A stretch of DNA of 64,000 nucleotides, from NCBI GenBank assembly GCA_010356995.1, contig ML996702.1:726680-790679 (forward strand). Direction: 5' to 3'. Both the position numbers and the translations under genes were made by a program. Below are positions 3,482 through 64,000 of this stretch, piece by piece (position 1 is the stretch's first letter; the number at the start of each line of letters is the position of its first letter). The notes beneath the pieces are model-generated. The model did no database searches and was not told the origin of the DNA. It saw only the letters and a list, made by a program, of their open reading frames with translations. Source of the DNA: Trichodelitschia bisporula (taxonomy: Eukaryota; Ascomycota; Dothideomycetes; Phaeotrichales; Phaeotrichaceae).

Positions 3482-4767
3482 ATGGCGGCCGTTCAGCGCA
3501 CACTCGGTGCGGGCTCGAGTCTAGCGCAAAGACCGGCGGCATTGCTCGTCTCTCGCGGATTTACGACGCTCCCGGCGCTGCACGCTGTCGCGCAGCAGCA
3601 GCAAAAGCCCCGGACACCAGCCGAGCTCCTCGATCCGAATCTCGTGTCCACGGTCAGCGAAGAACACCGGCTGATCAAGCACCAAAAGACCATGCCCATC
3701 GGCAGTCGCCGGCGGCGCGCGGCGCTGGGGTCTACGGCTAATATCCCGTTCGAGCAGTTGCCGTACCAGTGCTTCCAAGAAGCGCGGAAAGTCCTCGCTG
3801 CGGACAGGGAGGAGAAGCTCGTACAGATCCAGACGCAGCGGGAGCGGATTGCGCGGTTGGAGGCGCAGGACGAAGCGGTTAGTGGTGGGAAGGCGGAGAA
3901 GAGGAGGCGGCTTGATAGTATGCGGCGGCATTTGGAGGAGCTCAAGATCTGGGCGGATATCAATGATCCTATCGTCAAGAAGAAGTTTGAGGATGGCATG
4001 GGTGCGCTGTCTTGCTTTCTGTGTCTATGATCTGGGCTAATGGCGGCACAGGCGACATGAACAAACCCGTCTACCGCTTCCTGGCCAACCGCAAATGGCA
4101 CTCCTACAAGCGCCCCCTCCTCCTCCAGCGCCTAACCCAAATGAACGTCATACCCGACGTGATCCCGCATCTCGACCCCGTCATGGAAGTCACAGCTACC
4201 TTCGGGCGCCCGATCGTGCCAGGCGACTTCGTCGATTCGCGGCGTAGCGAGCACCCGCCCACGTTGCACGTGCAGCCCTTCACCGCGGGGTCGAAGCTAG
4301 TCACTATCGTCGTCGTCGACGCCGACGTCCCGGATCTGGAAAGGGATAGCTTCGGGTTCCGCTGCCATGCGATATATGCGAACGTCCCTGTTTCCCCGAC
4401 GCAGACGCGCATCGCGCTGCGCGAGGTCGAGAAGAGGGGAGAAGCGGGGCTAGCGTGGCTGCCGCCGTTTGCGCAGAAGGGCAGTCCGTATCACCGGCTC
4501 GCCGTCGTCGTGTTGGAGCAGCCGGAGGGCGTGACGCTGGATGTCGAGGCCCTGCGCGGCGTGCAGCGCGACGGGTTCATCCTGCGCAGTTTTGCGGATA
4601 AGCAGAAGCTAACCGCGGTTGGGGCGACCATGTTCCGTGCGGTGTGGGATGAGGGGACGGCGGGAGTGATGGCGCGGGCGGGGATTGAGGGGGCGGATGT
4701 GGAGTTGAAGCGGAAGAGGGTTGCGCCGTTGCCATATAAGAAGAAGGATGGGGCGCGGTATCGGTAG
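3482..4767 (+). CDS. MRPL35: Mitochondrial large-subunit ribosomal protein mL38 (PEBP-like)
   Basis: Component of the central protuberance of the mitochondrial large ribosomal subunit. Exons 3482-4001 and 4052-4767 encode 411 residues. The 50-nt intron splits a Gly codon in [20 protein letters not shown]. The order is a presequence ([20 protein letters not shown]), a Gln-rich linker, a helical region ([20 protein letters not shown]), and a PEBP-like C-terminal domain. That domain includes [51 protein letters not shown], and the [20 protein letters not shown] block, which is diagnostic for the mL38/MRPL35 family. The C-terminal tail is basic ([19 protein letters not shown]). The ATG sits in a favourable ACAATGG context. 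Confidence 0.93.
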
Positions 4768-57899: not shown

Positions 57900-58285
57900 A
57901 ACGACTGCTAGCGAGCGGTTGTCGCTGTCACGCAGTAGTAGTTATTTAGATAGCTCCGTTGCACTAGTTATATAGCAGCAGCTAGTAATATAACAGTAGC
58001 CGCTCAGGCTAACGCTAAGACATCTAATTAGCCGTCTAACGCGTCCCGACGCCGTTTAACCCGACCCGAAGCCGTCTAATCCGTCCCGAAGCCGTCTAAC
58101 CCGTTCGAAACCGTAAAACCCGTTCCGAAGCCGTAAAAACCGTTTGTCACGGTCCTGGCCCAGCTCCCACTCCCTCTTCTCTCCCTAAGTCAACAATCTT
58201 TGACACACTACCAACTGGAAGGTATGGCTCCGTGACATTCATCACAATCCATTAACCTCAACTCGAATAATCACACATCGAAAAA
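57900..58285. other. Intergenic with short tandem repeats
   Basis: Contains the repeat array listed separately and, upstream of it, short CTAGTTATATAGCAGCAGCTAG-type AT-rich near-palindromes at about 57965-57995. Confidence 0.5.
58030..58148. repeat. About 21-bp tandem repeat array
   Basis: Five to six imperfect units around the core CCCGAAGCCGTCTAACCCGT, with substitutions and one or two length variants (CCGTCTAACG, CCGTTTAACC, CCGTAAAACC). It lies in the PTPA 3' flank. Confidence 0.8.
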
Positions 58286-58492
58286 ATGGCAAAGGATATG
58301 TCTGATTCCGCCTCCAAGTGGTCCATGGTGGCCTTAGACACAATCATCAAATATCTCATGTCCACGAAAGAGAGGCAAGAGCGCCTGGCGCAATCGCGCC
58401 CGACCCCAAAAGCAGTCGATAGTGACGAGCTTCGCGCTGAACGGCTGAAGGAGCAGGAGGAAATCCTCGACTACCTTTGGACGCGTGGATAG
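58286..58492 (+). CDS. Possible small protein, 68 residues
   Basis: Complete small open frame with a very favourable start context (GAAAAAATGGCA) and charged, helical composition (LMSTKERQERLAQSRPTPKA, RAERLKEQEEILDYLWTRG). No family recognised, no signal peptide. It could be a genuine short gene or the first exon of a larger one; I found no good downstream join. Confidence 0.3.
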   Translation: MAKDMSDSASKWSMVALDTIIKYLMSTKERQERLAQSRPTPKAVDSDELRAERLKEQEEILDYLWTRG

Positions 58493-59658
58493 GTAGGATG
58501 AGAACCCAGTATGCTTTAGAATCGCGACTAATTCATGGTAGACTGGCTGATGTGAACACGGGCCGTAAGGCACGAAGGCACCAAGCAAGTACTGTCAAGG
58601 CACTCGTGAGGATGGAAGGTATCGTTTGTATCCTGGAAGGGGCCCATCTGTGAGTAGGGCAGGGAGTGAGGGTCAACACCAGGCCTAAGGGCAGTTATTG
58701 ACCGGGGCAGTGGAAGGCGATATGGGACTGCTGTTTGCAGACTGCTGAGGGCCCCGAGACGCTGCTGCCTTCTTTGTCCTTCTCTAAACTTTTCAGAAGC
58801 TTACTTTGCCTGTGACGAGGCCTTGCCTACATCACCTACCCTCCATCCTGCTTTCGCCAACTCTGGCTGCGATTCACAGTTGCAGATACCAACATTTGGT
58901 CCTGAACTCCAGCGGATCGCGCACCATTCTCCCAACGCCGAGGCATTCAAGCTATGTACAGCTAGCGTCAAAGAAGGATCTCAACGTTGAGCAATCAAGT
59001 GGGTGTGCTGTCCCGGGAAGTCAGGGCCACCAATGGTGTAAACGTATTTCAGCAAGAAGGAAAGCACCAGTGGGTTCTTAGGTGCTTAGATAATGCGAAA
59101 AAAACGTCCGACAATGCCGATAGCTGGTGGTCACGGTGGTGTTCAGTCTAGAGTGATGGTGCAGATGAAAGTGGGACTCAAGCAAGTGTAAGCGCAAGCG
59201 CGACCCGTCAGATCCCTGCATGCCGATCCCATCCTACTCAGTTTTGACATCAAGCCGTCAACTCTTGACCTCGGTTTTCAGAGCGATATGACGCTCCACG
59301 TTTGCACTCATTTTGGCTTGCCATGCTGCCGCCCTCCCTCCGCTTCTCGCCCGGCGAGTTCCCACTGGTCCTCCTCCTGGGTTTGGGGGACAGCGTGTCC
59401 CTCGAGATAGGCTGTCGGTGGTCAGGCTGCGCCCCCCGGTGCCGGGACCAGCTGCAGCTGTTACTGGACAGACCGAGAATACCTTTACGCTGTTGTCACA
59501 GCCCCCCCACGGGACTGGAAGCGCCGAGCTCCCCCGCACTGAGTAATCCTACAGCTGAGGGCGAGTCGCTCGCGGACCTGGTTCATTTCCCATCAGCTTT
59601 TCGCCTCTCCAGCATCTCGAAACTGAGCAACAGAGCGTCTTGACAGCTCTGAACCATC
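58493..59658. other. Intergenic, upstream of the NLR gene
   Basis: No gene supported. Open frames over 59302-59643 on both strands look non-coding. Confidence 0.5.
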
Positions 59659-62600
59659 ATGGTACGTATGTTCCTTCGCTACACAGCTCTTGCTCCTTAA
59701 GGCCGATGTATGCCGTTTTCACTCCCATGTGTGGTACAACTGTATTTATTGTATCTGAGCTCTTTCTGTCATCGCCTTTGGCCCTTACTAACTGGGTTCA
59801 GGACAAATTTTGGAACAGACAAAGGCGTAAACATGGCAAGAAACGCGATGAAGCCGGTGACGGGACCGATTCTGGCGCAGCTAATAATCATGTTACACTC
59901 CGTCCCCCCGTCGGCCAGCCCTCCACCGAGCCCAGTGAGCAGCGCGTGCCACGATCATCATTGAGTCCCGGCCCCACAGGCCGCGAGACGGTTGTTCCCA
60001 CATCGCTACCAAACTTGCGCACCCTAACCCTCGTCGCGGCGCCGAGCGGTTCTCCCGCTGTGGATATCATATTCGTTCACGGACTCGGCGGTTCAAGCCA
60101 TGCAACCTGGGCCAAAGGCGGCAACCCGGAGCTCTTCTGGCCAGGTGAATGGCTTCCAAAAGAGCCGGGTATGGAAAAGGCCAGGATTTTCACCTATGGT
60201 TACAACGCGGATTGGCTGTCGACCGAAGCCAACAACCAGACTATTGGGAATTTTGCCATGGACCTACTGGCCTTGATGGCTCGTAGCCGAAATCATGATA
60301 CAGGCGAAAGCCACGAAATCGGAACCGTGCCTATCCTGTTTCTCGCCCACTCAATGGGAGGGTTGGTCGTGAAAAAAGCATACATCGATGCCCTAAATGC
60401 CCAAAGCAACCCAAAATACCTCCGAATCGGCTCCTCCGTCAATGCTATGATCTTTCTGTCGACCCCCCATTTAGGCTCTGACGCGGCCCCATTGCTCGGG
60501 AAGCTCATCTCAGTGTCAGTCGTCCTTTCAGACACCCAGTTTAGGCACAGTCTAGAACGAAATTCGAAGACCTTGGAAACCATTAACAAAGGTTTCCGCC
60601 ACCACACGGGCAAGCTTTTTCTTGCGTCCTTCTGGGAGACTCTGGAGACCCCCTTATTCGCCCAACTGAGCCGCAAGTTTCCGCGCAAGGTTCAGGTCGT
60701 GGACAAAGGCTCGGCTAGACTTATGTGTACCGGGGAAATGTACATGTCCTTGCAAGCCGATCATCATGGTGTTTGCAAATATACCAGCAGGCAAGATTCC
60801 AATTACCTGAAGGTCCTAAACACGATCCGTGATGCACTGGAGGCCAGTGAAGTGAGTCCCTATATTCATTGCTACGTCTAATACTGACTTGGCCCAGTCA
60901 CCTGAAATTGGTCCTCAACCGCCTGAGGATCCTCGGCTAGTCATGGATGGCTCATCCAAAGGTGAGCGTCAAACCTAAGTTACTTTGCAGCCTGACTAAA
61001 TGTCTAAGATTGTGCCCCCAAAGCGACCTGTTTCATTCCCTCTCAACCAAACGAAAACTTCGTCGGCAGGAATGCTGAGCTCGCGAAGGTCCAAGGCCTC
61101 TTCGCAGACAAAACCAACCGAATTTTGGCAATTCACGGCCTCGGCGGACTGTCACTACCAGTTGAACAAATGGCCACTGTTATGGATGACCAGTATTTGT
61201 GGGATACAGCGTTGGAGAAACTCGAATATAAAGAACAAGCAGCGATCAAAAACCACTCGGCAGCTGCGGACGACCCATCAGCCTTTCAAGATATGGTCGA
61301 GGCAGTCAAGAGAAAGAAAGAGGAGTATAAAAAAAAAACTTGGCCCGTTAAAATTGGGAAATATCGCTTTGAGCTACATGAGGTGGCAACAAGCATCGTG
61401 AAGTGGCTGGACAGGTTCAAGGCCGTGGGGGACATTGTTTCAAATGCGAACCCACTTCATTTCGGCCCAGCATGGGCCGGGTTTCGACTTGTTCTTGAGG
61501 TATGGAGGGACATTCGCTGTTCTTCAGATCTAACTGATTTCAAGGTTGCACTTTCAGAACAAAAAGTCATGGCTGCACTTTGCGAAGGCGTCCTCGCTGT
61601 GCTCAACATGATGACCAGGCTGAGGCTCTATAAGAAACATCTTCAAGCCCTACAGGAATCAGATGAACGGACCGCTCTTGCTGGTTCATTCACACAACTG
61701 TACGCACATGTCTTGAGTTTTCTTGCCAAAGCAGCTTTATGCTATGAGCAAAGCGCTCTCCTTCGCATCTGGAATGCCGTTTGGGGACCCGACAAAGTGA
61801 GCAACTTTGAGGAGCAATGTGGCAAACTTGAAGAGAGTGTTGAGAGAGACCTCCACAACTGTGACCGTCAAAAATTCAAGGCCCTAAGCAAGGAGCTGGA
61901 GCAGTTGGAAGTCCTGCGAGAGTCAATCAGCAGCCTGGCATCCAAGATGAATCTAAATGAACTGCTTTACGCCAACGGTGCCGCATTCGACTCATATCAA
62001 GAAGAGGATCAACCAGTGTGCCATGAGAAGACCCGAGTCGGCTTGCTGAGCGAAATTTCGAACTGGGCCAACGCTCCCAGGGCCTCCAGTAAATACATAT
62101 TCTGGCTGAACGGCATTGCTGGGACTGGAAAGTCGACCATCTCTCGTACGGTCTCTCGGGATTTGAAGAAGAAAAATCAGCTTGGAGCAAGCTTCTTCTT
62201 CAAGCGAGGTGAAGGCGACCGCGGCACGGCGAGCAAATTTGTCACTACGATCGCATATCAGCTATGGACCAATCAGTCTGAAGTGTCACCCTTTATTGCA
62301 AAAGCGATGGACGACAACCCGGCCATACTTACAAAGTCACCGAATGATCAGTTCAAGGAGCTCATTTTCCAGCCTCTGTATGAGACCATGGATATTCGGT
62401 CACAGACTTCGATTGTCATTGTGATTGATGCGTTGGATGAGTGTGAAGATGCAGATAAGATTCTCGCTCTCTTGGAACAGGGCAAGGATACGGGTCTGCA
62501 AATATTTCTAACCAGCAGGCCAGAGCTGCCAATTCGCAAAGGATTTAAAAAGAAAATATCGGAAGACGCGCATCAGGACGTTGCTCTCCACGATATCCAG

Positions 62601-64000
62601 GAAGACACAATCCGACACGACATATCCACTGTTTTGGAGCACAAGCTCACAGAAATACGGGAGGACGGCTCATTGCCACCCGACTGGCCGGGTGTTGACA
62701 TGATTCAGAAGTTGGTCGACATGGCAGTTCCGTTGTTCATTTTTGCCGACACCGTGTGCCGTTTCCTTGCTGAAGATATCGTCGATCCCAGCACAGCTTT
62801 GATGATGTTCCTCGACCACAAGAATCATGGCTCTCAGATGGAGCAAACCTACCTTCCCATTTTGGAACGACAGCTTGTACCGCTCAAGGGGAAGGAGTGG
62901 TACCGAGATAAAGTACTGCAAGATTTCCGAAAGATTATTGGTACGATCATTCTCCTTATCGAGCCACTCTCCACTGCCTCGCTTTCGAACTTTCTTGGTG
63001 TTGAAGAACGGGCTATCCGAATCACACTGCAGACACTGCATTCCGTGATCAGGATTCCAGAAGATCAAAACGCCCCAGTAAGGCTTTTCCACCTGTCTTT
63101 CCGCGACTTCCTTGTGGAACCTTGTGCGAAGGATTTTTGGGTGAATGAGCAGGAGACGCATGGGGAACTGGCCGGGAAGTGTCTCGAACTCATGTCTAGA
63201 AGCCTCAAAGAGGACATTTGCAACATCCAGGCAAACCAAGGTCCGGGAAAATTGCGGGCCGAAATCAGCGATGAAACGATAAAAGCGTACTTGCCAGCCG
63301 AAGTCCAGTATGCTTGCCAGTACTGGGTACACCATCTCAAGAACAGCAAAGCACCTTTGTCCTACCAAGGCACAGTACAGGCCTTCCTGCAGGAGCATTT
63401 TTTGCATTGGCTCGAAGCCATGAGCCTGATTGAGAGAATGACAGAGTCCGTCAATGCAGTTAGCACACTGCGGTCGCTTTTCTCGGTATGAGAGCCGCAA
63501 TATTTCATCACAAGTTAGCTAACACAATAGACCGATAGCGGCAAAAACACCGAACTCCAGAGTTTTCTTTCCGATGCAAAAAGTTTTCTCCTAAAGAACT
63601 GGGGGATGATCGAGCATGCGCCGCTCCAAACTTACATTTCCGCGCTTACCTTTGCTCCGGAGAGGAGTGCCATTCGAAAGCAATTCCACACGCAGAAGCC
63701 CCGCTGGATACGCCTGCAACCTAAAGTGCAAGACTGGGATGCGTGTTTTCAGACGCTCGAGGGCCATTCGGGATATGTCAGGGCCGTGGCCTTCTCGCCG
63801 GACGGCAAGCAGCTGGCGTCGGCATCTTCTGACAAGACGGTCAAGCTCTGGGACGCCGGCTCGGGAAAGGCGCTGCAGACGCTCGAGGGCCATTCGGGTT
63901 GGATCTGCGCCGTGGCCTTCTCGCCTGACGGCAAGCAGCTGGCGTCGGCATCTTCTGACAAGACAGTCAAGCTGTGGGACGCCGGCTCGGGAAAGGCGCT
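59659..64000 (+). CDS. Chimeric NLR: SesB-like hydrolase, NB-ARC fragment, NACHT and WD40 (3' end outside window)
   Basis: STAND-type receptor of the sort used by fungi in self/non-self recognition and cell death. Exons: 59659-59661 (just ATG), 59802-60851, 60898-60961, 61009-63485, 63531-64000+. The first intron has a perfect TACTAAC branch and TTCAG acceptor. Residues about 85-350 form a SesB-like alpha/beta-hydrolase (FVHGLGGSSHATWAKGGNPE, nucleophile Ser185 in LAHSMGG, and DHHGVCKY at its end). Next comes NENFVGRNAELAKVQGLFAD and RILAIHGLGG, the start of an NB-ARC domain, which stops inside its P-loop. From about residue 430 a helical NACHT N-terminal domain (PF17100-like) follows, with LWDTALEKL and FGPAWAGFRLVLEVWRDIRC. 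The NACHT P-loop GIAGTGKST is at about residue 741, Walker B is IVIVIDALDECED, and LFHLSFRDFLVEP follows. The WD40 repeats begin at about 63750. All exons join in frame. Confidence 0.82.
63750..64000 (+). repeat. 126-bp WD40-coding direct repeats
   Basis: Two units (63750-63875, and 63876 onward, cut by the window end) of 126 nt, coding for 42-residue WD repeats (TLEGHSG, AVAFSPDGKQLASASSDKTV, KLWDAGSGKAL). They are nearly identical at the nucleotide level and differ mainly around the GYVRAV/GWICAV codons. More copies are expected beyond 64000. Confidence 0.93.

Follow-up and report, generated by a model that had tools for sequence, protein, structure and literature searches.

A SesB-like hydrolase and a NACHT_N-NACHT-WD40 receptor joined in one open frame at a contig end of Trichodelitschia bisporula

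Layout of the locus and the junction

The stretch analysed, of 64,000 nucleotides and called the window throughout, forms the right end of a contig of 790,679 bases from the dothideomycete Trichodelitschia bisporula, whose genome measures 25.65 Mb. The last gene on it (59659-64000) is a candidate chimeric NOD-like receptor (NLR), in which a SesB-like hydrolase is followed by the beginning of an NB-ARC domain and then by a NACHT_N-NACHT-WD40 receptor, all on the forward strand. The spliced exons form a single stop-free frame of 1339 amino acids that is still open where the contig ends at window base 64000, in agreement with the continuous frame read in an earlier note on this DNA. Six exons lie in frame (59659-59661, 59802-60851, 60898-60961, 61009-61499, 61545-63485 and 63531-64000); four of the introns, of 140, 46, 47 and 45 nt, have GT-AG ends, and the fifth (61500-61544) also begins with GT and ends with AG.

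Exon 1 (59659-59661), placed by the splice model and aligned copies, consists of the start codon only, with the GT donor immediately after it. The ATG is kept in all eleven aligned copies (the window counted) and the GTACGT donor in ten, with GCACGT in the copy C10. Exon 2 (59802-60851) encodes a leader of low predicted confidence and the SesB-like alpha/beta hydrolase (DUF676), as assigned from Pfam, predicted structure and Foldseek. Exon 3 (60898-60961; splice model and aligned copies) is a linker, for which an in-frame alternative acceptor, ending at 60927, was also judged possible by eye. The acceptor of intron 2 (60896-60897) is AG in the window versus GG in all four compared copies (C30, C16-left, C23 and C3), which may use a different in-frame acceptor there. 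By comparison with other copies, the start of exon 4 (61009-61151) carries a linker and the first 20 or so residues of an NB-ARC domain, up to the GLGG of the P-loop, and it ends at a recombination junction (61151-61152) placed within about 5 bases by the alignment of copies. Beyond it stands an internal ATG (61170-61172; M427 of the spliced coding sequence), the start of the catalogued protein model P0003, and with it begins the NACHT_N helical domain (61170-61930, end approximate; Goodbye-like, also matching DUF7708), assigned from Pfam and relatives. This domain is split by an in-frame intron of 45 nt (61500-61544), which was recognised from relatives and P0003; the reading of its 15 codons as coding was ruled out, since 25 of the 28 relatives aligned here have no such residues, nor does P0003. 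The exons of the earlier note were right in frame and had missed this intron. The NACHT NTPase (NPHP3_N/NACHT) and the helical region after it cover 62050-63485 (start approximate; Pfam and motif alignment), and the last visible exon (63531-64000) holds a linker and two WD40 repeats, recognised by repeat and Pfam matches and cut by the contig end.

The source of the first half was apparent from P0001 (EJ06DRAFT_534947, at C30), a SesB-like/NB-ARC/TPR protein of the same species whose hydrolase, linker and NB-ARC start are 94% identical to those of the window and which has the same 5' block. P0001 has a complete NB-ARC domain and TPR repeats, whereas the window gene carries another receptor in their place. 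Counted against the Pfam NB-ARC stretch of P0001, about 20 homologous residues remain in the window, and the break after GLGG at 61151 leaves neither a complete P-loop (GKT/S) nor a Walker B of NB-ARC. Four other copies extend as far as the P-loop (C30, C16-left, C23 and C3), and in each of them homology to the window ends at 61151 and GTGKT follows. The window alone among the copies reaching this point switches to a different NLR. At the join itself one C is missing, ACTG is still common with the other copies, and the sequence after it is unrelated. No claim of microhomology was made for ACTG, as the original upstream sequence of the NACHT gene is lost from view. Only 18 bases separate the hydrolase-gene sequence from the downstream ATG at 61170. 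For residues 1-426 Pfam listed 7 families (E up to 10), and NB-ARC, of which too little remains, was not one of them; the remnant was identified through the 94%-identical paralog P0001, where the corresponding sequence leads into an intact NB-ARC. The NB-ARC beginning proposed earlier thus held by homology, with the qualification that it stops inside the P-loop. Lacking GKT and everything beyond, the remnant is best seen as a linker only, a putative scar of recombination.

Domains of the two halves and known receptors

The hydrolase half matched DUF676 at residues 90-227 with 25.2 bits (Pfam cut-off 20.3), which upheld the SesB-like hydrolase of the earlier note, and PGAP1 with 22.3 bits, under the cut-off of 24.3. 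The codon of the nucleophile-elbow serine was located at 60351-60353 within AHSMGG, a motif in which G186 and G187 are invariant and S184 nearly invariant across 63 sequences. A confident alpha/beta fold after about 70 low-confidence residues was obtained by structure prediction, and the top Foldseek matches of the model were lipases, monoglyceride lipases among them. By its DUF676/PGAP1-type predicted fold and serine elbow, this half is assigned to the SesB-like class, its lipase or esterase activity being a prediction only. The best named protein matches were from T. bisporula itself (94, 92 and 91% identical). Exon 2 is 95.5% identical to the C30 copy and diverges by 4.5-4.9% from C30, C16-left, C3 and C6-end; in these, in C23 and in the window it is stop-free in the codons compared.

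The downstream half matched NACHT_N (PF17100) with 31.5 bits (cut-off 30) over profile positions 34-220, NACHT with 29.2 (26.7), NPHP3_N with 109.9 (24.8) and DUF7708 with 39.2 (25), and WD40 reached 98.2 bits over the whole frame (cut-off 27). Every domain of the second set claimed by the earlier note was therefore matched by Pfam, though only two WD40 repeats precede the contig end, and in the domain search it had proposed DUF676, NACHT_N and NACHT passed their cut-offs and NB-ARC was not matched. A shortening of NACHT_N by the join was considered and found unsupported, as the Pfam match likewise begins only at profile positions 10-71 in eight relatives, of which only P0160 reaches the cut-off. 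All residues invariant in 59 aligned sequences are present in Walker A (GIAGTGKST) and Walker B (VIDALDECE), and the two visible WD40 repeats are units of 126 bp with 92% matches. With its Walker motifs and C-terminal repeats, the downstream half is, as judged from its sequence, a fungal NLR of the NACHT/WD40 type, that is, a STAND (signal transduction ATPases with numerous domains) NTPase receptor.

P0003, catalogued as encoded in the window, starts at 61170 (M427) and is devoid of the hydrolase. Its structure model aligned with the plant NLR NRC2 and with 8bob_C, a protein of the maltose system which we take to be MalT. No MLKL- or HeLo-type match for NACHT_N was obtained in the structure comparison, whose rows are mostly WD40, so it has no bearing; nor has the PF17100 search of the own genome, which gave no match and likewise none in 14 controls. 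No close second copy of the downstream half occurs in the genome; leaving aside matches of a few dozen bases, the strongest is on C11, at 70% identity. At the left end of C21 (2-250) lies the C-terminal end of another WD40 receptor, which points inward and matches the P0003 tail with 87% identity; a broken hydrolase copy is about 3 kb away.

The novelty of the arrangement was evaluated by profile searches of 353 retrieved proteins, P0003 included (120 listed of 310, 120 listed of 2823, and 115 matches to the hydrolase half). The hydrolase was found in 233 of these listed proteins, the NACHT_N region in 114 and both in none, and the search for the same architecture elsewhere proposed earlier accordingly returned nothing among them. 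Two different effector-type domains (DUF676 and NACHT_N) precede one NTPase in one open frame, which places the gene with double-effector architectures. Passages of two papers (PMC9815663, PMC10197012) already describe NLRs that carry two effector domains in a row at the N-terminus, in many cases one of them Goodbye-like, the class to which NACHT_N is assigned. The combination of both halves, which the earlier note could not match to a described family, is thus new among the listed proteins, but its double-effector kind is known. Compared with those passages rather than with a published table of pairs, the window differs in the remnant of a second nucleotide-binding domain between the effectors. 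A title-level literature search found no title about the locus.

NACHT_N/NACHT/WD40 NLRs of Botrytis, Pseudogymnoascus and Cladophialophora, and P0133 of T. bisporula, are 33-53% identical to the downstream half among the listed matches other than P0003. These relatives have intact Walker motifs, as in the window, and many have WD40 repeats; many of those listed carry a basic or Ser/Pro-rich leader, whereas the hydrolase occurs in none of the 120. HET-E/HNWD proteins of Podospora share NACHT and highly similar WD40 repeats with the window, but have a HET domain where the window has DUF676 and NACHT_N; the 7 Pfam families listed for the first half and the 16 for the second include no HET domain, which leaves the gene outside the HNWD class.

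Fungal NLR architectures are thought, from protein comparisons, to arise by repeated domain fusion (PMC4986451). NLR pairs with a near-identical nucleotide-binding oligomerisation domain and different N-terminal domains (Dyrka et al. 2014, Table 2, PMC4986451) resemble the window in the swapping of N-termini; the pairs, as described there, were deduced from protein similarity, whereas the join in the window is placed within a few bases and a piece of the donor switch domain is left behind. Copies of the donor gene, the join and this leftover piece are all visible in one genome. An apparent further swap was seen in the sequences of P0133 and P0213 (on C11), which are 59% identical in NACHT-WD40 over P0133 266-958 and differ in their N-termini, P0133 being of the NACHT_N type and P0213 having PNP_UDP_1; it is of the same kind as the pairs in that table. 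The N-terminal stretch of P0133 is basic, and the alignment of this protein to P0003 begins only at its residue 154.

One receptor, two genes or a relic

The preferred reading, at a probability of roughly 55%, is that recombination gave rise to a chimeric NLR, made as one protein from the hydrolase promoter and working as a receptor with one switch and two effectors. What the sequence establishes is that the DNA of the two genes is joined, that the frame is open and that the motifs are intact. The front of the multi-copy hydrolase-NB-ARC-TPR gene (promoter region, hydrolase and NB-ARC to GLGG) is joined at 61151 to a NACHT_N-NACHT-WD40 gene, as the comparison of copies shows, and transcription would most likely be from the hydrolase promoter, with translation as one protein. 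Binding of a ligand by the WD40 repeats would release the NACHT; this domain, being intact, would bind ATP and oligomerise, and the ring would cluster the NACHT_N (Goodbye-like) helical domain and the hydrolase, as their families suggest. The clustered hydrolase could then act on membrane lipids and bring about cell death, again by analogy with its family; sesB-like domains have been suggested to modify membrane lipids (a passage of PMC4986451). Expression as one protein would raise the question of whether one NTPase ring can drive a lipase-like effector and a helical, membrane-type effector together.

The case for one transcript draws on the relatives of the downstream half (120 listed of 2823 matches). 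The alignment starts within the first 60 downstream-half residues in 96 of the 120, P0003 counted, and further in for 24. Without P0003, 95 of the former remain; 9 of these start later than M427, and 0-12 extra residues lie upstream of it in 8, 13-40 in 8, 41-48 in 27, 49-59 in 8, 60-131 in 33 and more in 2. At least 27 residues precede the equivalent of M427 in 78 of the 95, and the join has therefore probably removed the promoter and original start of the downstream gene; that its promoter is gone is also suggested by the mere 18 bases retained before its first ATG. The downstream NLR has thus probably lost its own promoter and N-terminal leader, and the second half probably depends on the promoter of the first. 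Initiation at M427 on the same message is unlikely because 24 ATGs, of which 10 are in frame if the main start is counted, precede it in the spliced coding sequence. A single transcript across both halves appears likely.

Several observations count against a single working receptor. The catalogued model P0003 begins at M427 and omits the hydrolase; a leader is short or absent in 17 of the 95 listed relatives (the 9 with starts beyond M427 among them), either genuinely or through their gene models. The remaining C-terminus lies off the contig, which ends inside the WD40 array. Continuity of frame across the join would be expected by chance in about one case in three, and the in-frame join was therefore dropped as evidence of function. 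Constraint on the hydrolase half also has weak support. The ratio of nonsynonymous to synonymous substitution rates (dN/dS) of the window against C30, C16-left, C3 and C6-end was 0.29-0.44, higher than the 0.18-0.24 of these four copies compared with one another; pairings with C23 gave 0.45-0.50. Private changes of the window were counted at 288 codons that are represented in three or more of the four closest copies and identical among them; 10 were nonsynonymous and 7 synonymous, four of the ten being common to C21. With three in four neutral changes taken to be nonsynonymous, as a rule of thumb, binomial tests gave p = 0.11 for 10 of 17 and p = 0.02 for 6 of 13, with the changes shared with C21 removed. 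Neutrality is thus not clearly rejected, and the hydrolase data fit weak constraint as well as relaxation.

The first alternative is that the locus holds two neighbouring genes, of which one is a hydrolase fragment cut short and the other a NACHT_N-NACHT-WD40 gene with a new promoter inside the hydrolase gene and its start at ATG 61170. The exact start of P0003 speaks for it, as does the place of this ATG just 5' of NACHT_N, whose profile start of 34 falls in the range of the eight relatives, and the relatives with little or no leader. It is nevertheless considered unlikely, with so few non-hydrolase bases before the downstream ATG, no stop between the halves (the frame is open through 61151) and canonical ends of the introns at 60852-60897 and 60962-61008. 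The long leaders of most listed relatives suggest, moreover, that M427 is probably not the ancestral start, and none of the 115 hydrolase-half matches was marked as encoded in the window, although clustering at 90% identity could hide one.

Equally doubtful is a recombination relic, in which the join is real and the locus is unexpressed or its product non-functional, this copy being one of a number of broken ones close to contig ends. At C21 and C10 the same gene is broken, at different points, and constraint on the window hydrolase is only weakly supported; against this stand 1339 codons without stop or frameshift, canonical intron ends and intact NACHT motifs. An assembly artefact joining two unrelated loci is highly improbable, for although the contig lies among repeated sequence and breaks off within a WD40 array, the window hydrolase is a distinct copy by its divergence in exon 2, and the four or so bases common at the join would be too few for an assembler overlap.

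Copies of the 5' block at contig ends

The start codon is preceded by a 5' block of upstream sequence (58236-59658, forward strand), a putative promoter and 5' untranslated region, delimited by a genome search with window sequence. The search with 58000-61400 gave 39 matches, which correspond to the window and 15 other places, whole or partial; two short C6 matches (1272911-1273066 and 1306205-1306431) were left out of this count. Fourteen of the 16 places are oriented towards a contig end no more than 10.5 kb away; only C26 and an internal C6 copy lie further from theirs. The block is followed by an NB-ARC coding stretch in C30, C16-left, C23 and C3. The C21 copy has a truncated hydrolase with an in-frame TGA and a break near 60402, and the C10 copy jumps to another DUF676 sequence and then to an RNase H-like fragment, presumably of copia type. 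In C19 the block breaks near 59500 and a PNP-type open frame (about 4159-4575) follows; this fragment of 108 amino acids gave no Pfam domain, and it was assigned by its similarity to the PNP part of P0213 (56% identity, 100 residues). A promoter shared between different NLR effectors is possible at C19, to judge from this arrangement. Nothing was recognised by eye among the open frames after the block in C2 and C8, for which no domain search was made. The C26, internal C6 and C9 copies run into N, and the C6-end, C20 and C25 copies stop at a contig end or within 179 bases of one.

These copies led to the tentative idea that chromosome ends serve as a site of immune-receptor swapping, where the shared 5' block (promoter, start codon and effector) recombines with adjoining NLR modules. 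Different receptors may thereby come under one promoter through breaks at different positions (four contig ends, the window and C19), which we regard as somewhat doubtful. Chromosome end here means a position near contig ends only, because a scan of ten loci gave no telomere repeats (at least two TTAGGG units) and repeated sequence, too, can bring an assembled contig to an end. HET-domain genes cluster near telomeres in Neurospora, according to the abstract of PMC10684091. Repeat-induced point mutation was discarded, as C/G to T/A differences from six copies were about equal both ways in a crude count made irrespective of dinucleotide context. Within the 5' block, the window has a net insertion of 83 bp (58971-59053), made up of 75 bp and an 8-bp near-duplicate (AAGAAGGA); it is missing in all 14 copies that span this point and looks like a small mobile element or filler.
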